Source of the DNA: a virus
Reading direction: 5' to 3' (one strand)
Virus record (IMG/VR): IMGVR_UViG_3300011116_001253
Location: 1 to 64,000 of that record
DNA: 64,000 nucleotides
The notes beneath the pieces were generated by a model. That model had not been told where the DNA came from and did not search any database. It saw only the letters and a list, made by a program, of their open reading frames with translations. The position numbers and the translations under genes were made by a program. This document shows positions 5,689 through 54,006 of the stretch, piece after piece. Each line of letters begins with the position of its first letter. Position 1 is the first letter of the stretch.

Positions 5689-6255
5689 ATGAAAAAAAAC
5701 AGCTCTGAAATTAAATTGGTAGATAAGGTTATTTCCAGTCTTGATTGGGATTCGATATTCGAAGTGAATAAATGTTTCAAAATTGGTGTTGGTGAGGGTA
5801 CTTCGGTCATTCCAGGAATTAAAAGAAAAGTTTTTGGTGATAATCTAACCAAAAATGACATAAAAGGAGAACTAAAAACCCTTTTGAAATACGTCATAGA
5901 GAATGATATAGCCGAATTATTTTATGGACCCTGGCTTATCTTTTGGACAGATGGAGATTGGGTAAAATTAGACCTAGAAACGGATGATGAAGCTGATGAT
6001 ATACCTGAACATTTTGGCGATTCTAATGGTGAAATAGAAATTGCCTTTGATTCCACCCTAGAAGTTGTTTACTCTCCTCAAAGAATTATAGTTGCAGGAA
6101 ATTCACATCAGCAAGATTTGATCAAAGATGATTCAGATACTTCGAAACTAGAGTCAATGCTTAAAAAAGCACTCCTTTCCGAAAATTATGAAGTTGCTAA
6201 TAAAATAAAAGAATTGTTGGATCTTCAGAATATCGGAGATGGTGGAGATAAATAG
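5689..6255 (+). CDS. Unknown acidic protein with a C-terminal UVR-like helix pair
   Basis: Not recognised as a named family. The 188-residue product is acidic in the middle (ETDDEADDIPEHFGD). It ends with LESMLKKALLSENYEVANKI, which resembles the helical UVR/UvrB-UvrC interaction motif (L--A----YE-A--I---L). It starts 3 bases after gp62 and is followed 4 bases later by the next gene, so it is part of the replication operon. A role in replication or repair is inferred only from context. It ends in TAG. Confidence 0.55.
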   Translation: MKKNSSEIKLVDKVISSLDWDSIFEVNKCFKIGVGEGTSVIPGIKRKVFGDNLTKNDIKGELKTLLKYVIENDIAELFYGPWLIFWTDGDWVKLDLETDDEADDIPEHFGDSNGEIEIAFDSTLEVVYSPQRIIVAGNSHQQDLIKDDSDTSKLESMLKKALLSENYEVANKIKELLDLQNIGDGGDK

Positions 6256-7715: not shown

Positions 7716-8423
7716 ATGTTCACTAAAGACCAAATCAAAAAATTTCTTTTTTTAGACGTTGAGACAGCAGGAGCTTATCCTGATCTAATATCTCTCCATG
7801 ATCAAAATCATCGCCTTTGGGAGCTATGGATGAAAAGAGAAAAGTATTACAGGACTGCATACCCAGATTTAGCATCTGCTGAATCGGAGGAAATTTACGT
7901 CAGCAAAGCAGGATTGGAACCTGAATTTTCTAAAATTGTCTGCATTTCGTTTGGCTCCTTTACTGAAGAAGGTGATATGAGATTCATTTCCTTTTACGGA
8001 GAAGATGAAGTTGATAATTTAAACAAAGCTTTTAAAGTTTTAAATAATGCTGCTTCGAAAGGTTGGAAGCTATGTGGACATAATATAAAGGGATTTGATA
8101 TTCCTTGTATTGGAAAAAGAATGATCTATAATCACATAGAACCTCCGATTAATTTGAGAATCTGGGATAAAAAGCCATGGGAAATGCAATTCATGGACAC
8201 CTCTGACATCTTTGCCTTTGGTAGCTGGATTCAACAAAAATACCTTAGCTTAGATCTACTAGCTTGTTCTCTAGGTATACAATCTCCTAAGGGTTTGATG
8301 GATGGTTCGATGGTTCATTCTAGATTCTGGTCAGGAGGAGAGAATGAAACCATCAAAGACTATTGCGAACTTGACGTTAAAACAGTTATGCAGGTTATGG
8401 ATAAGATATGCTTCACTAGTTAG
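7716..8423 (+). CDS. DEDDy 3'-5' exonuclease (PolB-exonuclease-like)
   Basis: Predicted 3'-5' exonuclease with an RNase H-like fold. Seen: Exo I FLFLDVETAG (Asp14, Glu16), Exo II CGHNIKGFDIPC, Exo III YCELDVKTVMQV (Y--x-D, the DEDDy form), and a MDTSDIFAFG strand. This matches the stand-alone 'predicted 3'-5' exonuclease related to the PolB exonuclease domain' group. A charged insertion (residues ~25-65, LHDQNHRLWELWMKREKYY) separates Exo I from the rest. No polymerase domain is attached. It is the last gene of the replication block and stops 22 bases before a strong terminator. It ends in TAG. Confidence 0.82.
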   Translation: MFTKDQIKKFLFLDVETAGAYPDLISLHDQNHRLWELWMKREKYYRTAYPDLASAESEEIYVSKAGLEPEFSKIVCISFGSFTEEGDMRFISFYGEDEVDNLNKAFKVLNNAASKGWKLCGHNIKGFDIPCIGKRMIYNHIEPPINLRIWDKKPWEMQFMDTSDIFAFGSWIQQKYLSLDLLACSLGIQSPKGLMDGSMVHSRFWSGGENETIKDYCELDVKTVMQVMDKICFTS

Positions 8424-11877: not shown

Positions 11878-13842
11878 ATGCCATTGCCACAACTACAATC
11901 AATTAATGAAGATTATGTTTTCATTTTAGAAAAACAAAATTCTATTCTAGAAGCAAAGAGATCTGATTCTGATGATTATGTCTTAGAAGGTATTGCTGCT
12001 GTTTTCGGACAAGAAAACAATAACAATAGAATCTACGAAGAAAAAGAATATCTCCCACACTTAGAATACCTTAAAGAAAAAATCTCACAAAACAGATTGG
12101 TTGGTGAGTTAGATCATCCTGAGAAGTTTGATGTGTCTTTAAAGAACATCTCACACATCATAACCCATCTTGATTTTGATAGAGGTGATAGATTACTAAA
12201 GATAAAAGTAAGATTGCTCGACACACCAGCAGGAAAAATAGCAAAGAGCCTAGTAGATGCAGGTGTTCCACTTTCAATTTCATCTAGAGCAGCTGGATCG
12301 GTTGGACCTGATAAAAAGGTTCAAATTAAAAAAATCTTTACTTATGATTTAGTAGCAGATCCAGGTTTTAAGGATGCACAACTTGAAAGAGTGTATGAAA
12401 GTCAAGGGTTTACAACTATCCAGATCGAAGAAATGAAAAAAAATAGCATTTTAAACGGTCTAGAGTGTCTAAATGAATCATTAGGTATCGAAAATGAATC
12501 GACGTTAAAGATATATAAAGTCGAAAACGATCTAGAATTTCAAAAAATCGTAAATAAATCAGATAATAAAAATAAAACAGCCATTATGGAGAATAATGAA
12601 TTTGTTACTGCAGAGGAACTAAATAAGTATTCAATTTTCCTTAAAAAGGAAATGGACTCTTTGAAATCAGCCATCTCAGAAGTAAAGGAACAAAAAGCAT
12701 CTTTGACTGAATCAGAGGAAGCTAACAGATCAAATCAAGCGCTCGAAGAAAGAGTTGCTAAGTTGGAAAAATATTCAGAGTATTTAGCAGAGAATTTAGA
12801 GAATGCTGTTAAGTATGGTGAGTACTTAGCAGAAAACTTAGATAATTCTATCAACTACAGTAAATATCTAGCTGAAAATTTAGATAAGAATATTTCATAT
12901 TCTAAATATTTAGCTGAAAATGTTGACAAGTCTATTACATATTCAGAATATGTTGCAGAAAGCGTTGATAAGAACATCGAATATTCTAAATATTTAGCTG
13001 AAAAGTTAGATCAAAATATACAGTATTCTGAATACTTAGCAGAAAATGTAGATCACTCAATTAACTATTCTGAATATCTAGCAGAAAATCTCGATAAAGG
13101 TATTGCTTACACTGAATATGTAGCTGAAAAGTTAAACGATGGTATCGAATATTCAGAATATCTTGCTGAAAATGTTAATAAAGGAATTCAGTATTCAGAG
13201 TATCTAGCTGAAAATATCAACAAAGGAGTTGATTTCACTGAAAATCTTTCAGAAAAGCTTAATAAATCTATTTCTTATAGTGAATATATAGCTGAATCAG
13301 TTTCTAATAAATTGCCAGCTGATCCTAGTACAGTATTAAGAGAAAGTGTGAATACATCTGCAGTTGCAGGTCTAAATGAATCTGGCTTCGCTGGAAATTA
13401 TGAAGATCTAACATCAAGGATTGATTCACTCATTGAATCGGTTAAAACCCAAAAAACCGAGTCTAATATCACCGAGGCTATGAAAACCGTAGCACCAGCC
13501 AAAACACAAAAGGCAGAAGAAGTTCTTAACGAGAACGAAAACATCAACAAAACAGGACTCAAATTTATCGATGAGATGCCTGAAGATTATGCTCCAGTTT
13601 GGGAATCTTTAAATGAAGGACAAAAGCAATCAATCATTGCTCAATCAAACTTCTACAGATTAGATACACCTTACCAGATCAAAAATTTCTGGCAAACACG
13701 TCAATTAGGTTCTAAATCTGTTGGAGTACAGAAACTCGACGAGAACGAAAACGTTGCTCAAACTACAAAAACACAAGCTTATGGTTCAGATTATATGAAC
13801 TATATAGCTAGTACGTTAGAGCAAAAGTTCCAAAGACGATAA
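11878..13842 (+). CDS. 21: Prohead protease (gp21-like) fused to a coiled-coil scaffold
   Basis: Residues 1-~195 are a T4 gp21-type serine protease. GELDHPE carries the catalytic His80, VPLSISSRAAGSV carries the Ser (Ser136 is the likely nucleophile), and DLVADPGF supplies the family's acidic strand. Residues ~237-654 look like scaffold (gp22-like): a helical start, thirteen 14-residue repeats (residues ~298-479), then a Gln/Glu-rich tail with several L-N-E sequences (GLNE|S, VLNE|N, SLNE|G) that the protease could cut. T4 keeps protease and scaffold in separate genes; here they are one 654-residue frame. An internal ATG at 12586 (MENNEFVTAEEL) after an A-rich leader could make scaffold alone. 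Self-cleavage near SILE|AKR is plausible. Confidence 0.85.
   Translation: MPLPQLQSINEDYVFILEKQNSILEAKRSDSDDYVLEGIAAVFGQENNNNRIYEEKEYLPHLEYLKEKISQNRLVGELDHPEKFDVSLKNISHIITHLDFDRGDRLLKIKVRLLDTPAGKIAKSLVDAGVPLSISSRAAGSVGPDKKVQIKKIFTYDLVADPGFKDAQLERVYESQGFTTIQIEEMKKNSILNGLECLNESLGIENESTLKIYKVENDLEFQKIVNKSDNKNKTAIMENNEFVTAEELNKYSIFLKKEMDSLKSAISEVKEQKASLTESEEANRSNQALEERVAKLEKYSEYLAENLENAVKYGEYLAENLDNSINYSKYLAENLDKNISYSKYLAENVDKSITYSEYVAESVDKNIEYSKYLAEKLDQNIQYSEYLAENVDHSINYSEYLAENLDKGIAYTEYVAEKLNDGIEYSEYLAENVNKGIQYSEYLAENINKGVDFTENLSEKLNKSISYSEYIAESVSNKLPADPSTVLRESVNTSAVAGLNESGFAGNYEDLTSRIDSLIESVKTQKTESNITEAMKTVAPAKTQKAEEVLNENENINKTGLKFIDEMPEDYAPVWESLNEGQKQSIIAQSNFYRLDTPYQIKNFWQTRQLGSKSVGVQKLDENENVAQTTKTQAYGSDYMNYIASTLEQKFQRR
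12769..13314 (+). repeat. Thirteen tandem 42-bp repeats encoding a 14-residue unit
   Basis: Consensus unit x-Y-S-E-Y-L-A-E-N-L-D-K-x-I, repeated 13 times without gaps in the scaffold part of the protease fusion. Fourteen residues equal two heptads, so a continuous coiled coil or helical rod is expected. Codons differ between units, so the repeat is maintained at protein level. Units 12 and 13 are the most divergent. Confidence 0.92.
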
Positions 13843-21218: not shown

Positions 21219-22619
21219 ATGTGTGGAATATTATTAACAAGTAAAGCTCAGAAAAATGCGAGCGTATTAGATTCTATAAAACATAGAGGTATTGAAAGGT
21301 GTGAACTTGAAGTAGATCAAATAACGCTATGTCATCATAGATTACCTATACAAACATCGGATGGAGATGAATGGGCTCAGCCTAAAGAACTCAGCCCTGG
21401 TATCTATATGATGTTTAATGGCGAAATATTTAACTATGATAAAAACAGATTTTCCTCAGATACCGAATATCTTTGTCAACTGTTCGGAAGTCTTAAAGGA
21501 CTTAATGTTGAATTTTTTACCGCAATGTATCAATCTCATATACAAACGTGGGATGGATTTTGGGCCATTGTTTTTTATGATTCTAAAAGCGGTGACATTT
21601 TAGCTTTCACTGATCCGTTGGGAAAAAAGTGCTTATATTACAACGATCTTGGTGAAATATGTTCAGAAATTAAAGGATTAAGAGGACCGATTGATGAGAT
21701 TGATGAAATTTACATAAGCTCGGTTAGGAAATGGGGATATAATAAAGACAATAGAACTCCTTATAAAAGTATTAAAAGGATTTTACCCAACACATTTCAT
21801 TTCTATAATATAGCATCCCCACAGTTTATGAAAACCTACGGTCCTTATTATAGAACCTGGGAATCACCGATTAGAGAATTGGATGGAGCATCATACGAAG
21901 AACATCTGGAGTGGCTCTGGGATAAAATGTTTGAAAGTGTTAAAAATAGATTAGTTTCAAAGAATTACCCAATATCTCTTCTAGTTTCTGGAGGATTGGA
22001 TTCATCGATAATTGCTGCAATCCTTAAAGAAATGGAAGCTCAGGTTACATGGTTTTCGATTGAGAACGGAGAAACCCCATTTGTCACCGATTTAGGAGCT
22101 CATTTAGACACGCAAATTAATTTTCTAGAGTATGATATGGATTCTAGTAAAAATGCTGCTATATACAAGCTATGGAATGAAACACCAGTGGATTTAGGCT
22201 CAGTCATTCCCCAATATCACTTGTTCGAAGCGGTCAAAAGAAAAACCGGTTACAGAATAGTTTTAAGTGGGGATGGATCTGATGAATTATTCGGAGGCTA
22301 TTCGAGAATCCATGAATATGATTCACAGAAGTCTGATGTTTTCGAAGAATTAACATTCTATCATCTACCAAGACTGGATAAGATGTCAATGGCTCACACA
22401 CTCGAGCTTAGAAATCCTTTTTTAAATCTAGACATTGTGAGATTTGCACTTCACTTACCTATCGAATGGAGAACCGATAAGAAAATACTCAAAGATACAT
22501 TTGGACCTCTTCTTCCAGATTCTATAGTGAATCGTAAAAAGGAGGCACTTAAGAATCCAGAGATAAAAGAGGATAAAATTAAATATAGACAGAAAATTGT
22601 AGATCTTTTTCTCTCGTGA
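21219..22619 (+). CDS. asnB: Glutamine-dependent asparagine synthetase-like protein
   Basis: 466 residues with both AsnB domains. The N-terminal class II glutaminase begins MCGI, with Cys2 as nucleophile, and keeps Arg41 (HHRLPIQ), Asn67-Gly68 (FNGEIFNY) and Asp81 (SDTEYL). The synthetase domain has the PP-loop LVSGGLDSS (residues 256-263), SGDGSDELFGGYSR (350-363) and PRLDKMSMAHTLELRNPFL. It is shorter than E. coli AsnB (554), ending soon after the RKKEAL segment. All catalytic residues appear intact, so it should convert Asp, Gln and ATP to Asn, or amidate a related substrate. Phage copies are uncommon. An alternative is a role in modified-base or surface-glycan synthesis, as for other AsnB-like amidotransferases. 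Confidence 0.85.
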   Translation: MCGILLTSKAQKNASVLDSIKHRGIERCELEVDQITLCHHRLPIQTSDGDEWAQPKELSPGIYMMFNGEIFNYDKNRFSSDTEYLCQLFGSLKGLNVEFFTAMYQSHIQTWDGFWAIVFYDSKSGDILAFTDPLGKKCLYYNDLGEICSEIKGLRGPIDEIDEIYISSVRKWGYNKDNRTPYKSIKRILPNTFHFYNIASPQFMKTYGPYYRTWESPIRELDGASYEEHLEWLWDKMFESVKNRLVSKNYPISLLVSGGLDSSIIAAILKEMEAQVTWFSIENGETPFVTDLGAHLDTQINFLEYDMDSSKNAAIYKLWNETPVDLGSVIPQYHLFEAVKRKTGYRIVLSGDGSDELFGGYSRIHEYDSQKSDVFEELTFYHLPRLDKMSMAHTLELRNPFLNLDIVRFALHLPIEWRTDKKILKDTFGPLLPDSIVNRKKEALKNPEIKEDKIKYRQKIVDLFLS

Positions 22620-36947: not shown

Positions 36948-38135
36948 ATGACTCACTTTTCGAGAGAAAACGAAACAAACTTAATTGATTTTGACTGGAA
37001 CATCCAGAACGGGAACAAACCTAACAGAAAACTAAAAAGAGTTCCTGGTGGATTCAAGGTGTACTGCCATGAACCATATGCACAAGGACTTCTTGATTTA
37101 TTTAATTCTTATTTTTCAGGAAACACGCAGATTGACGAGCATGGAAAAGACCTCATCGAAGGAATGGTTTATCCTTGTAAAATCGTTGTTTTGAGAGAGG
37201 ATGAGGCTTTAGCTCAGACCTCAACAGGACAAAGCATCTATATAGATTTGAAAAAAGAAAAGAAGGACGCTGAAAAATTGGATATTAGTGGTCTTTCATT
37301 TAATATAGGAGATGTTGTACAGGCTAGAGTGAGACTTTCTGGATCTAATTATTATGGTTCGGTGATAGAGTATTACATGCACAGCTTAAGATTGGAACTT
37401 TTTGAACAAATCAAAAAGGAATCTAACGCTTATTTGATTAAAATAGAAAGTATCAACAAAGGAGGATATATTGTTGATTTATCTGGTATAAAATGCTTCC
37501 TTCCAGGTTCACTTGCAGCTGCTAATAGAATAACAGATTTTGAGTCTTATATAGGAAAACAGCTTCATGTTATGATGGAAGGATATGTCGAAGCCAAAGA
37601 CATTTTCATAGTTTCTTACAAAAAATACCTTAACAAGATTATGGAATCTAAGATCCAAGAATTGGATCTAACCAAAAAATATAAAGGTTTTGTAACAGGT
37701 ACAAGTGAATTCGGAGTCTTCGTTGAATGGGAAGAGGTTTACACTGGTTTAATCCACAAAACAGAATTCTTAGAAGAATCAGAATTGACAACTATACATC
37801 CTGGCGATGAGATTGAATTTTATGTCAAAGAGATAAAAGACAATAATCGTTTAACACTTACTCTAGAGAAACCCCTTGAAAGAAATGTTATTATACAGGA
37901 TCTAGAAAATCAAATCAAAGAAGGATCTGAAGATCCAATCGAAGCAAGAATAAAACACAGAAGAAAAAATGGGATCTTAATAGAGCTATCTAACTTAGGT
38001 TTAATGGCTTTAGTCCCTCAGGATAAAATTGGAAAGAGAGATCGAAATCTAAAACCTGGGGATGATCTGCTAGTAGTAGTTTATGAAGTCGAACCATCTA
38101 GCGGAAAAATTTACGCTAGAACCTTCAATGACTGA
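36948..38135 (+). CDS. Multi-domain S1 RNA-binding protein (ribosomal S1-like)
   Basis: 395 residues with three or four tandem OB/S1 domains. The clearest is residues ~240-308: KYKGFVTGTSEFGVFVEW, then YTGLIHKTEFLEES, HPGDEIEFYVKEIK and NRLTLTLEK. This is the canonical S1 pattern (G-V-----FG-FV---G--GLhH-S-------G--h---V--id---R--LS-K). Others lie at ~62-145, ~150-225 (SINKGGYIVDLSGIKCFLPGS) and ~325-393 (RRKNGILIELSNLGLMALVP). Bacterial S1 has four to six such domains and recruits mRNA to the 30S subunit. A phage copy could favour late phage mRNAs or bind phage RNA. Its stop overlaps the amidoligase start (ATGACTGA). Confidence 0.82.
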   Translation: MTHFSRENETNLIDFDWNIQNGNKPNRKLKRVPGGFKVYCHEPYAQGLLDLFNSYFSGNTQIDEHGKDLIEGMVYPCKIVVLREDEALAQTSTGQSIYIDLKKEKKDAEKLDISGLSFNIGDVVQARVRLSGSNYYGSVIEYYMHSLRLELFEQIKKESNAYLIKIESINKGGYIVDLSGIKCFLPGSLAAANRITDFESYIGKQLHVMMEGYVEAKDIFIVSYKKYLNKIMESKIQELDLTKKYKGFVTGTSEFGVFVEWEEVYTGLIHKTEFLEESELTTIHPGDEIEFYVKEIKDNNRLTLTLEKPLERNVIIQDLENQIKEGSEDPIEARIKHRRKNGILIELSNLGLMALVPQDKIGKRDRNLKPGDDLLVVVYEVEPSSGKIYARTFND

Positions 38136-39534
38136 TAATAGAAATCATTTTGATAAGCTTCATGCCCTTTCATCTGCTATAATAGGATTCGAATTTGAGT
38201 TCTATACTAACATGATGAAGGGCAAGGTAGCAGAATCACTTTCCAAACTTCTTAATAAAAAAGTACAGGTATCTGAAAAATATCATTCTAAATTACCTGT
38301 AGATTCTAACACTTTTAAATTGGAGCCTGATTATTCGGGTGGTAATAATATGATGGAATTCATCACAGGACCACTCCCGTATAATGAGGCTATGCCTATT
38401 TTAATCAAAACCCTAAATTGGATTGACGAAAATGGGTGGACTAATGATAGGTGTGCTTTCCAGTTTTCTGTCAGCTTCGATAAGTTCAGAAAAGATGTTA
38501 AAGATAAAATTGAGAATTTAGATAGACTCAAATTTATATTAGGTTTAGATGAGGGCTTGATTTATTCTAAGTTTGGCAATAGAAATAAAAACGTATATGC
38601 CAAATCTATAAAAAGAGTAGTTCCTAGAAATAGATTTTCGGTAGTTGAGAATTTAAGTACTATAGATCCTAAAATGTTCAAGATTCCGGAAGACAAATAC
38701 TATGGGGTCAACTTCACAAAAGCACCAAAAGGTTATCTTGAATTTAGATATTTAGGTAATAGAGACTACCAAAAAAAGACAAAGGATATCAGAGAGGTTA
38801 TAGATTATGTTATACTCTATCTCTATGATTTACTCAGCCACCGTATAGCAGGATACACAAAAGAAGATCTGAAAAAGCTACAGGAGCTTATGAATCAATA
38901 CACCAAAGTGGTTAGATCTTTCAGCAATCCTGAATTATTTTTTCAAAACTATCCAGATTTTCATGTCTTTGTTGATTTAAAAGGTTGGGATGAAAATATT
39001 AAAACATATTTCCCATCGATCAGAGATAAAATCTTTGATATAATAGTTGAAGGTAATGTGAAGTCTTGCTATTTTAATTATGATACAACTACAGGAAGAT
39101 ATCAGATAAAAGAAGCTAGAAGTAGAGAAGCTTTCATATTGGAAGATTTAGATCTAATTTCATGTGATATTAAAAACGGTATAATCAAAAATTGTAACAT
39201 TTACAGCTGTGATATTAAAAAATCCTCACTAGAGGATTGTAATGTTGTCAACGATACAACTATTAAATCTTCAAAGATTAAAAATACTATTTTACAATTT
39301 AAGAATGAGGTAGAAGATAGCTTTATCGATTGTGAGGGTAAGAATATAAATTGTAAGATAGTTGGCGGAGTTTTTAGAGCCGGTAATGTTGGAGAATTGG
39401 CCGAAATAAGCAAAGAAACACTCAAAGTTAAAGGATGGGAAGATTTTAGAAAACAGAGATTTGTTACCGATAGTAGATTAAAGAATTCGAATGATAAATA
39501 CAATATTTCTAAATTCGGAAACATGAATTTTTAA
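38128..39534 (+). CDS. Amidoligase-like enzyme with C-terminal beta-helix-type repeats
   Basis: 468 residues from the ATG at 38128, which overlaps the S1 stop; an upstream in-frame ATG at 38083 lies inside S1. Residues ~18-120 fit the putative amidoligase family (COOH-NH2 ligases): IIGFEFEFYTN (Glu22/Glu24), TFKLEPDYS, MMEFITGPLPYNEAM (E--TGP) and CAFQFSVSFDKF, where the family usually has C-G-H-H-h-s. A conserved-type Arg lies in YLEFRYLGNRDYQ (~residue 207). Residues ~340-430 contain short irregular repeats (SCDIKNGIIKNCNIYSCDIK, SSLEDCNVVNDTTIKSSKIK) typical of a right-handed beta-helix or pentapeptide fold. It may conjugate an amine or peptide to a carboxyl on a protein or cell-wall component; the target is unknown. 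Confidence 0.62.
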   Translation: MTDNRNHFDKLHALSSAIIGFEFEFYTNMMKGKVAESLSKLLNKKVQVSEKYHSKLPVDSNTFKLEPDYSGGNNMMEFITGPLPYNEAMPILIKTLNWIDENGWTNDRCAFQFSVSFDKFRKDVKDKIENLDRLKFILGLDEGLIYSKFGNRNKNVYAKSIKRVVPRNRFSVVENLSTIDPKMFKIPEDKYYGVNFTKAPKGYLEFRYLGNRDYQKKTKDIREVIDYVILYLYDLLSHRIAGYTKEDLKKLQELMNQYTKVVRSFSNPELFFQNYPDFHVFVDLKGWDENIKTYFPSIRDKIFDIIVEGNVKSCYFNYDTTTGRYQIKEARSREAFILEDLDLISCDIKNGIIKNCNIYSCDIKKSSLEDCNVVNDTTIKSSKIKNTILQFKNEVEDSFIDCEGKNINCKIVGGVFRAGNVGELAEISKETLKVKGWEDFRKQRFVTDSRLKNSNDKYNISKFGNMNF

Positions 39535-40834: not shown

Positions 40835-41707
40835 ATGAATATTTTTAAAAAGAACAATATCCTAATAAATGGCTTGCTAAATGATACTTTCACTTTTTTG
40901 CAGGATACCTATAATCAGACTACAGCCATGTTCACTGTAGCTTCTGCATGGGGACAAATTCTTTTTGTTTTGCAGAATCTATCTCAAATGATTCTCTATT
41001 TCATCGAGGATTCCATTACAGAATTGAATATAGAACAAGCTTCACGTGATTCATCTATACGAAGTTTAGCCAGAATAGCAGGATATGATCCAGGTAGAGC
41101 TTCTACTGCTCAAGGAGAGATAATTCTATCGTGGAACAGGAGAGAATCTGATGTCGGTGGAGGTTCAGTTATAGTGAACAATAAAGCTCAGATAAGATGT
41201 GAACAAAACGGTAAGGTTTATTCAATGATATTCGGATCTTCTCGTGTAACAATCCCTCTAGCTTCAAGTACATCCCCACTTAGAGTGAAAATTGCTCAGG
41301 GGGACTTTCAAACTGCTATTGTTACAGGTACTGGATTAGCTCTACAGAGCTTTAATTTGCCCTCTGCTAGTGCTGCTTTTTTAGATCAGTATTATGTTGA
41401 TGTTTATGTTAATGAAGAAAAATGGAACAGGTACGATTCACTCTATGACATTCCTTTGAATGGAAAGGGATTTTTAGTGAGAACTGGGATACAGGAAGGT
41501 CTTGACGTTTATTTTGGTAACTCTAATTTTGGTATGGTTCCTCAAAGAGGTTCTAGAATAAGAATCGAGTATCTGCAAACATCTGGCCTCTCAGGAAATG
41601 CTGTTTCAACAAAGGATACTCCGTTAACCTATAGATTTGTTTCTACTGGAACAGATTTATTTGGAAGTGAAGTTAATCTTAATAATTATCTAATTGGTGC
41701 TAATTAG
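40835..41707 (+). CDS. 6: Baseplate wedge gp6-like, N-terminal portion (ends at in-frame TAG)
   Basis: 290 residues up to TAG at 41705. The N-terminal ITELNIEQASRDSSIRSLAR...GYDPGRASTAQGEI matches the gp6/baseplate-J 'E--LdtA--r-sv--lA---GY-p-s---a' block. VYVNEEKWNRYDSLYDIPLN and VYFGNSNFGMVPQRGSRIRI, then YLQTSGLSGNA, match its 'W----s--d------y-h-----h--FGdG--G--P--G--h-h-Y--t-G--GN'. The frame continues past TAG without shift into the next ORF, which carries the remaining gp6/J blocks. The two probably derive from one ~576-codon gene (T4 gp6 is 660). Confidence 0.8.
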   Translation: MNIFKKNNILINGLLNDTFTFLQDTYNQTTAMFTVASAWGQILFVLQNLSQMILYFIEDSITELNIEQASRDSSIRSLARIAGYDPGRASTAQGEIILSWNRRESDVGGGSVIVNNKAQIRCEQNGKVYSMIFGSSRVTIPLASSTSPLRVKIAQGDFQTAIVTGTGLALQSFNLPSASAAFLDQYYVDVYVNEEKWNRYDSLYDIPLNGKGFLVRTGIQEGLDVYFGNSNFGMVPQRGSRIRIEYLQTSGLSGNAVSTKDTPLTYRFVSTGTDLFGSEVNLNNYLIGAN

Positions 41708-42565
41708 ATAGACCCTTCTTTCGGTTCTAATCCTGAACCTTTAAGTTTAGTCAGATTGGTTGCTCCAAAGACATATAGATCATATGTGTTTGCTAACGCT
41801 ACTAACTATGAGATTTTTCTTAATAAGTTGGGAATATTTTCTCAGGTTCAAGCATTCTCGACTTTCGACGATGATTATTTGAATGATGATAATGTTATCT
41901 ATATCTATTTAGTTCCTGATGTTACTCTTAACATTAGTTCGAATGAGGACTATTTTAGCATACCTGTTTCTAACTTTTTATTAACCGAACAACAAAGATT
42001 AAGTGTTTTAAATTTAATTGAAGATTCTGGATCTATGATTGCTACAACTGTTGTTAAAATAGTTGAACCTGTTATTACACGATATATTGCAAATGTTATT
42101 ATTACAATGTTTGAAGGGTTTGATCCTGAAACAATTCGTCAACAAATTAGGAATAAAGTATCAGATTATATGTTAAATTTAAAAAGAAGAGATTTTATAC
42201 CTAAGTCCGATATGATTGCTATTATAGAATCAGTTGAAGGCGTTGATTCAGTCTCATTCTTTTTTGTTAGCCAAAAGAATGAAGCAAATCAAATTTTGCT
42301 TAAATCTTTAAACAACGTTTCTGATGCACAGAGAAGTCAACAAATAGGACTTAATTCATTTGGTGATATAGTGATTGGAAGAAATGAATTGGTTATACTT
42401 AGAGGAGGTTGGACTGATAGAAATGGAGTGGTTTACACAGATTCTATAACTTCAGGAAAACCAGGACCACTAAATATCAATATTTCGAATATCGTCCAAA
42501 AAGGATATAATTCTGGTTTAAATGCGGATCTCAAAAAACAAATCATAGCTTCAACAACAGTATAA
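41708..42565 (+). CDS. 6: Baseplate wedge gp6-like, C-terminal portion (after in-frame TAG)
   Basis: Open in the same frame directly after TAG. The first codons read IDPSFGSNPEPLSLVRLVAP, the baseplate-J 'G-----E-h---R--AP' block, so this part is likely translated. The next block TYRSYVFANATNYEIFLNKL fits '---nRAVT--DY---h'. The first conventional start is TTG at 41756, which would remove that conserved block; the other option is the ATA at 41708 or readthrough of the TAG. Later FEGFDPETIRQQIRNKVSDY and MIAIIESVEGVDSVSFFF are typical of gp6/J C-termini. It ends in TAATG overlap with the next gene. Confidence 0.72.
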   Translation: MDPSFGSNPEPLSLVRLVAPKTYRSYVFANATNYEIFLNKLGIFSQVQAFSTFDDDYLNDDNVIYIYLVPDVTLNISSNEDYFSIPVSNFLLTEQQRLSVLNLIEDSGSMIATTVVKIVEPVITRYIANVIITMFEGFDPETIRQQIRNKVSDYMLNLKRRDFIPKSDMIAIIESVEGVDSVSFFFVSQKNEANQILLKSLNNVSDAQRSQQIGLNSFGDIVIGRNELVILRGGWTDRNGVVYTDSITSGKPGPLNINISNIVQKGYNSGLNADLKKQIIASTTV

Positions 42566-43098: not shown

Positions 43099-46000
43099 AT
43101 GTCAAATTTTTTTTATAGAAGATTAGAATTTTTCGATAAGGCTGGAAGCCCTTTGAATTTTGATTATATTGGTCCGACAGGTCCAACCCAATTGGATTCT
43201 AAATTCACATTCTTGACTGGGGTAACAGCTTCTGCTTCGGGTTACTCGTCAGTTAGCCAATTTGATAACGATCCTGGTTACATTGATCTCAATTCTATAG
43301 ATAACAATAGCTATAATATCACAGATTGGGTTTCCGAAGTAAATAGCTTTCTTCTAAATGGTGCAGAAGTTTTTCTAAACGGCCGAGTTGCTGGTCAGAA
43401 TCAATTCACTGGAAAAATTGAATCTATAATAAATTCTAATAATATATTCACTGTTAATTTCTATCAGGATAGCATACAAGGACAGAGATTGATTAGCACT
43501 GATAATCAGATTTTCTTCACTACCTCATATAAATACAGACCAGGCGGGTACTGGAAAGGGAATATTTATTTTGATCCTGTTTCATCAGGACTTTACGAAA
43601 ACCAACAAATTTTCATAATCCAAAACTTCGATGTTTCTGGAAGCAGACCTTATGGTATCCCCCACACTGGAGCTACTGGAGCTACTGCAGGGAAATGGAG
43701 AACCAGATGGTATAATGATAACTATGGAAATACTGATGTTTCTGAAATAATTTTCACATACAAAATACATGAAGATTTATCAGGAGGTGACGGTCAACCC
43801 CTTATAGTCTCATACCCAAATGTGGTTTATCCAGTTGACGTCTCGTCAGGGGATAGCCTAATTTCTGGAGGTTATATTTCTACAAATTCTGTTAATGAGT
43901 CTGCACTTTCTATTAATGTTGGTTTAAATGCAACGGATCTTGCAGCAAACATTTATGAGAGAAAGCTAATTATAGAAGATATTAGCTCTGATTCAGCTGA
44001 TCCTATAAAAGTTGTAGAGATAGATTTTTATGGAGAAATTATAGGAGAAGATGAGAGATTTTCTGTTATGCTTCAGAATATCGGAAGAGCTTTCTATCCA
44101 AGTGATTCTATAATACTAAGAGATCATGATCCAGCAGAGCCTCTTCCTAATTACATAGAAATAAACGAGAAGAGAAAAGAACTTCTATTAGCAGGTGAAG
44201 AAATATTCCCTTATGCTGGAAGTTACAAAGGCTTGATTAGTGCCATAAAATTCTTTGGTTACCAGGATTTAAGAATCAAAGAATATTGGTTGAATCTCGA
44301 GTATCAAAACTTGAAATTAGAATCACCTTTACAACAGAATTCTCAGTTTCTAAATCAGATAACTAGACAGCAGTCTAATGGATATAGTCAATCATATCAA
44401 ATTGGTGATGTGTTGAATAATCCAAATTCTGGTAAATATAAAATGGTTCAAACCTATGGACCTGACACTGAAGGTAACTATGTTTTAGATGTTTCAAGTC
44501 AAGACACATTAGTTCCAAGTAGAACCTATAAGAAAACATCTCTTTTTGGTCTTTTTTATGATATTAATAAAAACAGTGGAACTGTTGATGATTACGGATA
44601 TCCAGAGGTTGTCGATGCTTTTCAGTTTACTCAAGAGGAAGTTTTAATTAAGCTTTTTGCACTTAAAGAAAGATTAAAGCGAGATTATCTCCCTTTGAAT
44701 GCTAGAATAGTTGATATAACAGGAGAAGGTCTATACTTCAACGTATATAATACAAAATCTTGGACTGATGTCATGGAGAGACCTGATATAGAATCAGGAA
44801 TATACGCTGAGATCAGATCAAATCCAGATTTTGGATTTCTTGAAGATCTTAGAAATTTTTATATACGTCCATCTTCAACAGGTATACAAACACCTTCTGA
44901 TTATTATGACTCTTTCACTATTGAAGCTGCAGTAGCGGGAGGAACGGGTACAGCTTTCTTTTTTTCTGGAATCCCTGCGACTGGTCCAAATCCAATGTTA
45001 AAGATCACAGCTGGAAAAACGTACAATTTTAATTTTTTGACTGATGGATTTGATTTATTTTTGACGACAGATCCAAATCTAACTCAAATTGATCCTGTAG
45101 GTGTAGTTAATAATGGTGCTACTTCTGGAGGCCCAAATTTAATTTGGTATGTTAATCCTTTGCAAACATCTCCTGTTTATTATTACTCGTCCAATAATAA
45201 AAGCCTTTTAACAGGAAGTATTGATGTTTTGCCTGCTGAAATATCAGATTTAGATAATATCACTAATCCTCTTTCAAGTCAGCAATTCTTTAGCCCCGCA
45301 CAGAATGAATCCCTAATTACTTCAATTAGTAATTTCTATGATTTAAAACAGCAGGGCGAGATAGTGAGTTTGGGTGATAGTAATTATGATCCACCATCTT
45401 TTATAGATCCAATCACAGGTCAGCCCTACCAGGTTCCACTTGGTATGCCGATTATACTAGAGCTTATTACAGATGTCTGGACATGGGATGAATTGAATAT
45501 AAATTGGTCTGGACTTTTGATACCTGTTTTTAGAATAGGAGATAGAGTAAAACAAAAATCTACTGGTTATTTCGGAACAGTTACTGGTGTCAGTTATTCA
45601 ACAGGAATCTACACCGTGTTACTGGATGATTCGAGTGTTATTATTGTTGATGAATCTGATCTGTTTTCGAGTATACAAAACTACTCACTATTGACTTGGA
45701 AGAATATTAATTTTTCTAACCTTGTTGAAATTGAATGGGTAGTTAACAAGCCAGCAACTCAAACAGGGTCTCCTTATAATTACCAATTTAGGGGTTCGAT
45801 TGTTGATTTCTATAAAATGGCTCACTTTGTGCCTTATACTGGAATCTATCAGATCACTTGTAATATTTATGATGCCTTTAATGCAAAAACAGTTGTAATA
45901 AAAAACCAAGCAATCACGGTCAATCCAAAGATAATTGATATAGATGCTTGGACAAGATTCAGAGAAGTTGAAAGTTATCAATGGACGAATGTTCAAAAAT

Positions 46001-47283
46001 CTTGGGAAGATTATAATTCTATATGGGAATATCCTGCAGAGGGTAAAACCTTACAACAAGTTGAAAAAGAGATTCCAAGTGAAATCCTAAATTTTGCTGC
46101 TTACGGTAATAAATCCGAAGAAGGACAGGATGTTTACGTTAAGGTAGCAATAGATCCTATCGGTGCTACTGGATTTATAAATCTAACACAATCCACCTAT
46201 ACAATCACTGAGATCTCTTCAAATTTAATTATACCTGGACAATACGCTTTTGCTAAAATCTATACTTCAAATCCACATAATCTAACCAATGGACAGGAAG
46301 TAAGCATTTTCAACACCATACCCCAAATATCAGGAAGATGGAGAGCTATTGTTGAAGATGGTCAAACGTCAGAATTTACAATTCCTCTTACAATTGATCC
46401 TAGCTGGAATAACGTTTTGGTCATATCATCACCCACACGCTTGGCGGTAGATGGTTCATTTTTCACCAATCAATATCTAACACCATCTGGATCCATCGAG
46501 GTTTATGTTGGTGACAGATTGATAGGCTCTTCTGAGGCAGGAGATAACCTATACACTTCAGCTAACTCGATCGTATCTTCTATTAATTCTCTAAGAACAT
46601 TTCCTGATTATTTTGCTTCGTGTACTTTACCTACTTCGGATCCTGTTACTATTTTAATAAGTGCTCCTGATGAATTGGGATCAGATCAGAATGGGGTTTC
46701 TTTAACTTATAACGTGGAAGGATCTCTATCAGTCCAGTCATCATCTATAGGACTGTCGGGTGGAAGCAGTTTAACAGAGGCTTACGTTTATTATAGTGAA
46801 TCTAATGACACATACCCAAATGCAAATCTTAAATATTGGGGAACTAAGAATTTAGACTGGAATATATTCACTGAAAATTCTTGGGATGATGCCTACGCTC
46901 ACTCTTGGTTTGATTTTGAGTTTAATAATGATTGGCTCGGAGGATTTGAATTACATAATTTAAATCCTGGAGACTTCATAAAATTGAGTACTGGGAATGA
47001 ATTTTTTCCATTTCCTATTGGAGCCACAATCCAACCTGGAGTATCTAGCTTAACCGTACAAGAACTTGCTGATCAGTTAAATGATTCTATGGATCCTAAT
47101 ATAACTAATTTCTATTATAGACCGATCCCGAATGAGAGCGGTGGTCTTACTGTCGATTCACCTCCAATTAATCTCGAAATATTTAATACCTCAATACCTG
47201 CTTCAATCTATTCTACGCCAATCTCTTTAGCTGGTTCTGGTACAGGATTAGAAGCTGATTTTACTTATACCATTTATCCTTAA
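43099..47283 (+). CDS. Large baseplate wedge protein (gp7-like), with Ig/PKD-like region
   Basis: 1394 residues (T4 gp7 is 1032). Around residues 365-400, LLLAGEEIFPYAGSYKGLIS...KFFGYQDLRIKEYW resembles the conserved centre of gp7-type wedge proteins in T4-like phages (Y-GS----h-A--ffGY-Dh---Eyw). FALKERLKRDYLPLNARIVD follows. Residues ~870-955 (VEIEWVVNKPATQTGSPYNY...YQITCNIYDAFNAKTVVIK) read as a PKD/Ig-like beta-sandwich. The C-terminal ~300 residues are beta-rich. Short collagen-like pieces occur (IGPTGPT, HTGATGATAG). It follows gp6 as in T4 order (6, 7). Confidence 0.55.
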   Translation: MSNFFYRRLEFFDKAGSPLNFDYIGPTGPTQLDSKFTFLTGVTASASGYSSVSQFDNDPGYIDLNSIDNNSYNITDWVSEVNSFLLNGAEVFLNGRVAGQNQFTGKIESIINSNNIFTVNFYQDSIQGQRLISTDNQIFFTTSYKYRPGGYWKGNIYFDPVSSGLYENQQIFIIQNFDVSGSRPYGIPHTGATGATAGKWRTRWYNDNYGNTDVSEIIFTYKIHEDLSGGDGQPLIVSYPNVVYPVDVSSGDSLISGGYISTNSVNESALSINVGLNATDLAANIYERKLIIEDISSDSADPIKVVEIDFYGEIIGEDERFSVMLQNIGRAFYPSDSIILRDHDPAEPLPNYIEINEKRKELLLAGEEIFPYAGSYKGLISAIKFFGYQDLRIKEYWLNLEYQNLKLESPLQQNSQFLNQITRQQSNGYSQSYQIGDVLNNPNSGKYKMVQTYGPDTEGNYVLDVSSQDTLVPSRTYKKTSLFGLFYDINKNSGTVDDYGYPEVVDAFQFTQEEVLIKLFALKERLKRDYLPLNARIVDITGEGLYFNVYNTKSWTDVMERPDIESGIYAEIRSNPDFGFLEDLRNFYIRPSSTGIQTPSDYYDSFTIEAAVAGGTGTAFFFSGIPATGPNPMLKITAGKTYNFNFLTDGFDLFLTTDPNLTQIDPVGVVNNGATSGGPNLIWYVNPLQTSPVYYYSSNNKSLLTGSIDVLPAEISDLDNITNPLSSQQFFSPAQNESLITSISNFYDLKQQGEIVSLGDSNYDPPSFIDPITGQPYQVPLGMPIILELITDVWTWDELNINWSGLLIPVFRIGDRVKQKSTGYFGTVTGVSYSTGIYTVLLDDSSVIIVDESDLFSSIQNYSLLTWKNINFSNLVEIEWVVNKPATQTGSPYNYQFRGSIVDFYKMAHFVPYTGIYQITCNIYDAFNAKTVVIKNQAITVNPKIIDIDAWTRFREVESYQWTNVQKSWEDYNSIWEYPAEGKTLQQVEKEIPSEILNFAAYGNKSEEGQDVYVKVAIDPIGATGFINLTQSTYTITEISSNLIIPGQYAFAKIYTSNPHNLTNGQEVSIFNTIPQISGRWRAIVEDGQTSEFTIPLTIDPSWNNVLVISSPTRLAVDGSFFTNQYLTPSGSIEVYVGDRLIGSSEAGDNLYTSANSIVSSINSLRTFPDYFASCTLPTSDPVTILISAPDELGSDQNGVSLTYNVEGSLSVQSSSIGLSGGSSLTEAYVYYSESNDTYPNANLKYWGTKNLDWNIFTENSWDDAYAHSWFDFEFNNDWLGGFELHNLNPGDFIKLSTGNEFFPFPIGATIQPGVSSLTVQELADQLNDSMDPNITNFYYRPIPNESGGLTVDSPPINLEIFNTSIPASIYSTPISLAGSGTGLEADFTYTIYP

Positions 47284-53238: not shown

Positions 53239-54006
53239 CTATTCTTTTCCTGATTTTGGGTTTTTTTGTTCCCATTCATCAAAGGTTTCTTCTATTATTT
53301 TTACTATAGGATCCCTAACTATATCCGATACTGAAAGATTCATGGTACCTATATCTTGCTTGTTTTCGAAAAGTTTTACAACAAGTTCTAAAGCTGACAT
53401 TTTAGAATTTTTAATATCGATCTGTTTCGTGTCCCCTGTTATAATCATTTTGGTGTCCGTTCCGATTCTAGTCATAGCAGACCTCATATTTTTTTGAGTT
53501 ATGTTCTGTGCCTCGTCTACTATGATGATTGCATTGTCTATAGATCTACCTCTGATATAGGCTAAAGGTAATACCTCTATATAGCCCTGATCTAGCATCA
53601 ATTGAGTTAAAGCTTCTCCTATTAGTTTGTGAAAATTGTCCAGAAAAGAGATTGTAAATGGATACATTTTCTCTTTCAAATCCCCTTTTAAAAATCCAAC
53701 CTCTTCACCCTCTAGAACCGTTACACTTTTTACCAGAATTATCTTTTTAAATCTTTGGTCTGTCTTTAGCAATTTGAGTGCTTGAGCACATGCTAGATAG
53801 GTTTTACCCGTCCCTGCTGGTCCTGCTGCAATAGTGATTTTGTTTTCATTTATTAGATTTATGAGTTTTTTCTGGTTTTCATTCTTAAACTTATAATCTA
53901 GTTTGAGTTTTTGTGGATCGAATCTAGATCCGTGTTGATTTGGGTTTCCTGAGTAAAATGTTTCGTAAAACTCTTCGTCTGTGATTTTCTTTTTTCTACT
54001 TGTCAT
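53239..54006 (-). CDS. phoH: PhoH-like ATPase
   Basis: 255 residues, PhoH family. Seen: Walker A AAGPAGTGKTYLACAQAL (residues ~61-78), IILVKSVTVLEGEEVGFLKG (PhoH block, 'R----------G-LPG'), and PLAYIRGRSIDNAIIIVDEA, where the Walker B IIVDEAQN is preceded by the family's hallmark (aYhRGRT--). TKMIITGDTKQID is the sensor motif. phoH occurs widely in phages and its role is unresolved (an RNA helicase or RNase-associated ATPase is suspected). It stands alone on the minus strand among giant fibre genes, with a small ORF just upstream. Confidence 0.9.
   Translation of the reverse strand: MTSRKKKITDEEFYETFYSGNPNQHGSRFDPQKLKLDYKFKNENQKKLINLINENKITIAAGPAGTGKTYLACAQALKLLKTDQRFKKIILVKSVTVLEGEEVGFLKGDLKEKMYPFTISFLDNFHKLIGEALTQLMLDQGYIEVLPLAYIRGRSIDNAIIIVDEAQNITQKNMRSAMTRIGTDTKMIITGDTKQIDIKNSKMSALELVVKLFENKQDIGTMNLSVSDIVRDPIVKIIEETFDEWEQKNPKSGKE

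Follow-up and report, generated by a model that had tools for sequence, protein, structure and literature searches.

A lone in-frame TAG in the gp6-like baseplate wedge gene of a T4-like phage contig: probably a recent nonsense mutation or an error of the metagenomic consensus

Lak phages reassign the TAG codon to glutamine (code 15), mainly in structural genes, and their genomes carry a tRNA with a CTA anticodon together with release factor 2 (PMC6784885). In T4, the ring that keeps the baseplate together is made of gp6 (PMC3004832). In bacterial genes, in-frame stop codons are often under purifying selection and tend to be short-lived in evolutionary terms, and of those initially identified a substantial fraction may be artefactual, as reported by Belinky et al. 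2021 (PMC7918605), whose functional argument is built on stops common to at least two species.

The gene considered here lies in a 64,000-nucleotide stretch of viral DNA, the whole of which was analysed and is termed the window. It is homologous to the Lak gp6 gene (about 34% identity) and, as in Lak, the codon concerned is a TAG in a structural gene; however, the gp6 homologue of Lak-B5 holds 11 in-frame TAGs and the gene in the window one (the homologue in LR756500 has none), and neither the window nor the relatives searched yielded the Lak-type tRNA (CTA) and release factor 2 genes. Judged from these sequences, the single TAG does not resemble Lak recoding. With T4-type gp6 (phrog_219 and phrog_6) the gene shares the sequence family and the full-length frame, and differs in having one in-frame TAG, no Pfam match and a weak PDB profile match. 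Like the cases of Belinky et al. it combines a single nonsense codon with a tail under purifying selection, whereas its TAG is shared by none of the relatives read.

The features on which the analysis rests are as follows.
40835 to 42565, plus strand: gp6-like baseplate wedge gene, 576 codons (internal TAG included) and a terminal TAA.
41705 to 41707, plus strand: in-frame TAG, codon 291 of the gene, seen in this contig only.
41708 to 41770, plus strand: conserved block after the stop (IDPSFGSNPEPLSLVRLVAPK), with residues invariant in 18 aligned sequences.
41756 to 42565, plus strand: mechanical second open reading frame from a TTG, 269 codons.

The frame opens at ATG 40835 and continues through the TAG to the TAA at 42563-42565 without any shift, leaving 285 codons after the TAG, which confirms the proposal of the initial annotation that a single in-frame TAG splits the gene. 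The read-through frame of 576 codons has the same length as in three relatives with 87-91% protein identity (L001, L002 and L003), which indicates that a single codon was changed without insertion or deletion; a frameshift or insertion is ruled out by the identical 1728-base frames of all four. The assignment to gp6, also made initially, is borne out by matches on both halves and across the stop: the N-terminal half matches phrog_219 (E 1.2e-25), the C-terminal half searched alone matches phrog_6 (E 4.2e-07; PHROG baseplate wedge families), and the read-through protein matches phrog_219 (baseplate wedge subunit, E 2.7e-31) over residues 41-450. A Pfam search returned no match up to E 0.1, and the sole match in a PDB profile search with 18 sequences was a gp6 chain (9f4a) at a weak E of 0.11, while a single-sequence PDB search gave chance-level matches only. 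The AlphaFold model, made with 18 sequences, is of low confidence (mean pLDDT 50.2).

The window is part of a 67,733-base virus record and, over nearly its full length, is collinear with G001, a relative whose record spans 151 kb and whose DNA is about 75-78% identical. The phage is a large T4-like virus, probably with a genome of several hundred kilobases, to judge from the contigs of its relatives, which reach 434,509 bases, so that most of its genome is probably unseen. Across 51 protein alignments of window ORFs no stop was found in G001 (0/51), and of all the window genes gp6 alone is seen to be broken in this comparison. Among the other genes of the window, a prohead-protease-like protein (Peptidase_S77 match) contains tandem 42-base repeats at 12861-13242 that encode 14 residues of the YLAEN type, and an asparagine-synthase-like gene (PF00733, E 3.6e-40) is found at 21219-22619 amid phage structural genes.

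Relatives of the gene were collected by a tblastn search of IMG/VR with the read-through protein, which gave 51 loci (E up to 1e-3) among 55 matched stretches, and by a second search with an alignment query, from which the best 80 of 119 relatives were taken. Together these make 129 loci, many of them repeating one contig, and 70 distinct gp6 sequences; the relatives are about 59-91% identical to the gp6 of the window. Codon 291 is a sense codon at all 51 loci of the first search, three partial loci still covering it, and the alignment that the initial annotation had suggested as a check shows a sense codon throughout (70/70). No distinct relative has an in-frame stop anywhere in the matched gp6 frame and none has a split gp6 (0/70 in both cases), the gene being one uninterrupted open frame in all 70, for three of them over the part of the gene that their sequence covers, and not in the window. 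Codon 291 specifies any of ten residues (E, V, Q, S, A, G, T, I, N, L), a variety which implies that the site is freely variable and that no special codon is kept there. A close strain was sought in viral_contigs by an exact pattern across codon 291, and none was found, the two matches being unrelated.

The extension after the TAG is coding, since an open homologous stretch of 285 codons is far beyond chance. The block that directly follows the stop ranks among the conserved parts of gp6, with D293, P294, F296, G297, P300, L305, L308, A310, P311 and K312 invariant in the 18 aligned sequences; together with the PHROG match of the C-terminal half, these residues uphold the earlier claim of a conserved gp6 block at this position. 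Compared with L002, the part before the stop has a pN of 0.048 and a pS of 0.732, and the part after it a pN of 0.072 and a pS of 0.633; the ratios are rough, as synonymous sites are near saturation. On these comparisons the tail is clearly conserved and shows no decay, so that the stop would be either young or absent. Pseudogene decay of the tail was considered and rejected, as the branch counts show no clear relaxation: with L003 as outgroup, 13 amino-acid changes fall on the window branch before the stop and 16 after it, and the differences to L002 number 21 of 290 and 32 of 285, respectively (Fisher p 0.11). At columns with 97% conservation or more, the window has just two private changes, S314Y and G479S; both are in the tail and may give a mild hint of relaxation or of poorer sequence, being too few to weigh.

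How often lone nonsense codons occur was estimated from the window genes and the loci of their relatives, in 587 distinct alignments, each 100 residues or longer, that comprise 219,291 residues. An in-frame stop is present in 46 of the 587, of which 44 were set aside: 43 fall within roughly the first 15 residues of ORF 38083, ahead of where its protein probably begins, and one is at codon 7 in L001, near the low-complexity end of that contig. The stops that many relatives have in the first 15 codons of ORF 38083-39534 suggest that these codons are probably untranslated, and the conserved protein of this ORF probably starts at ATG 38128. The two internal stops that were kept are both TAA and both lie in homologues of the baseplate-region gene 43099-47283.
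L024, 11254 to 11256: isolated TAA in the homologue of gene 43099-47283.
L028, 10167 to 10169: isolated TAA in the homologue of gene 43099-47283.
Each of the two is confined to one contig and has intact neighbours. L024 and L050, which come from different metagenomes, are 99.98% identical, with 2 differences in 11,319 bases; at both positions L050 has G and L024 has T, and one of the two creates the stop of L024, L050 being intact. L028 has a possible frame change near 8022 and may therefore be poorer sequence. From these cases about 0.19 lone nonsense codons are expected per window of approximately 20,500 codons, with a probability of at least one of about 0.17, a rate that has only two events behind it, each of them a TAA, and that comes from non-independent alignments.

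The reading best suited to these observations, with a probability of roughly 0.83, is that the TAG is a solitary nonsense codon and gp6 is intact apart from it, the TAG being either a very recent mutation or one present only in the metagenomic consensus. Its support comes from the lack of any such stop in the 70 relatives, from gp6 being the only broken gene and from the two comparable cases in relatives, and among the options initially listed an assembly error or nonsense mutation has thereby become the best fit. According to this reading, the TAG would not be translated through and would be an error or a transient mutation, having arisen very recently on this lineage or existing only in the consensus as a sequencing error. 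If the TAG is real, translation would end after 290 residues and the second half of the ring protein would be missing; given that gp6 rings the baseplate in T4, this loss would presumably be fatal to the virion if unsuppressed, and the genome carrying the TAG would be defective or a minor variant. In the case of an error, gp6 would simply be intact. Two observations count against this reading, namely that the stop is a TAG, the codon that the distant Lak relatives reassign and use mostly in structural genes, and that the tail is under clean purifying selection, as expected under readthrough; the bacterial in-frame stops under purifying selection described by Belinky et al. also weigh against it. 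This selection fits a very recent or unreal stop and fits readthrough equally.

Functional readthrough or suppression at the TAG, which would yield full-length gp6 and perhaps time or limit its production, is unlikely. It would be brought about by a phage suppressor tRNA encoded elsewhere, by a host suppressor or by near-cognate decoding. Besides the conserved extension in the same frame, it draws on the size of the probably unseen part of the genome, on the tRNA matches of some relatives, up to 39, and on the reassignment of TAG in Lak. Against it stands the distribution of the codon, since conserved programmed readthrough should show a stop at codon 291 in independent relatives and such a stop was found in none of the 70. 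The suppressor tRNA with a CUA anticodon envisaged at the outset did not appear either: ARAGORN found no tRNA anywhere in the 67.7 kb record, window included, and no CTA anticodon is present among the 99 tRNA genes that it identified in relatives, two of which have unresolved anticodons. Any tRNA matches at all are present in 10 of 22 records searched; ARAGORN was run on stretches from seven of these ten (G011, G016 and G020 were left out) which cover most, not all, of the tRNA matches of the seven, and the 99 genes come from the stretches of six. The tRNA matches are unevenly spread, with 32 to 39 each in G013, G014, G016, G018 and G020 (343-435 kb) and no or few in the other relatives above 200 kb. 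The release-factor domain PF00472 was matched in none of the 22 records, whereas the control matched it in 10 of 14 known genomes. As the virus's own record is a fragment, the absence of tRNA and release factor genes there is weak evidence. With no such gene found, and TAG terminating normally elsewhere in the window, the conditional suppression once thought conceivable lost ground.

The RNA downstream of the stop offers little to this explanation.
41766 to 41793, plus strand: weak RNA hairpin beyond the TAG, which L001-L003 lack.
Folding of the 100 bases that follow the TAG gives a z of -2.23, and 13 of 82 windows placed along gp6 fold just as well, so that a readthrough-stimulating RNA structure was rejected: the fold is ordinary for gp6 and the hairpin does not recur in L001-L003. 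A terminator-like match at 41723-41739 lies inside the coding sequence (1 found, 0.2 expected). A narrower version, in which a suppressor tRNA from the unseen genome or the host allows low-level readthrough of a recent TAG in this lineage only, an early reassignment step that limits a late structural protein, is still less probable. Were readthrough shown, the gene would capture the beginnings of a move away from the standard code and toward reassigning TAG, in a phage distantly related to Lak.

It is very improbable that gp6 is made as two polypeptides, with the second initiated at TTG 41756 or at the ATA after the stop. The TTG ORF is open, and the confidence of the low-confidence structural model falls just after residue 290, which may be weakly compatible with a domain border. 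However, the first 48 bases past the stop contain no in-frame ATG, GTG or TTG, so that TTG 41756 is indeed the first conventional start, as was initially pointed out, with no usable start before it. A start there would drop the invariant DPxFGxxP block, and an ORF that begins inside a conserved block is not credible as a separate gene. All relatives read have one uninterrupted gp6 ORF, which leaves a true two-subunit gp6 without support, and nothing was found in favour of initiation at the ATA.

The use of TAG as a terminator bears on the last alternative, a genome-wide reassignment. The 50 hand-listed ORFs (gp6 counted as two) end in TAA in 42 cases, in TAG in 5 including the internal TAG of gp6, and in TGA in 3. 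The other genes ending in TAG are the following.
1178 to 2530: gene ending in TAG.
5689 to 6255: gene ending in TAG.
7716 to 8423: gene ending in TAG.
53239 to 54006, minus strand: PhoH-like gene (PF02562, E 1.3e-64) ending in TAG.
Apart from this last gene, just one other of the 50 ORFs is on the minus strand. The initial annotation had counted three such genes where there are four, and was right that none has a coding extension past its TAG. Their counterparts in G001 end at an identical position or about one codon away at most, from which it follows that TAG is a working terminator and keeps its standard meaning. A genome-wide switch of TAG to an amino acid, as in Lak (code 15), has a negligible probability and is refuted as a whole-genome code for this window: distant Lak gp6 homologues are recoded, but such a code should show many in-frame TAGs and none that terminate, where the window has one in-frame TAG, against 272 CAG and 484 CAA in 19,752 codons, and four terminal ones, and gp6 of the closer relatives is free of in-frame stops.

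Lone nonsense codons turn up in metagenomic phage contigs often enough for one per window to be unsurprising. Given such a base rate, read support or recurrence in relatives would be needed before a decoding mechanism is proposed for a codon of this kind.
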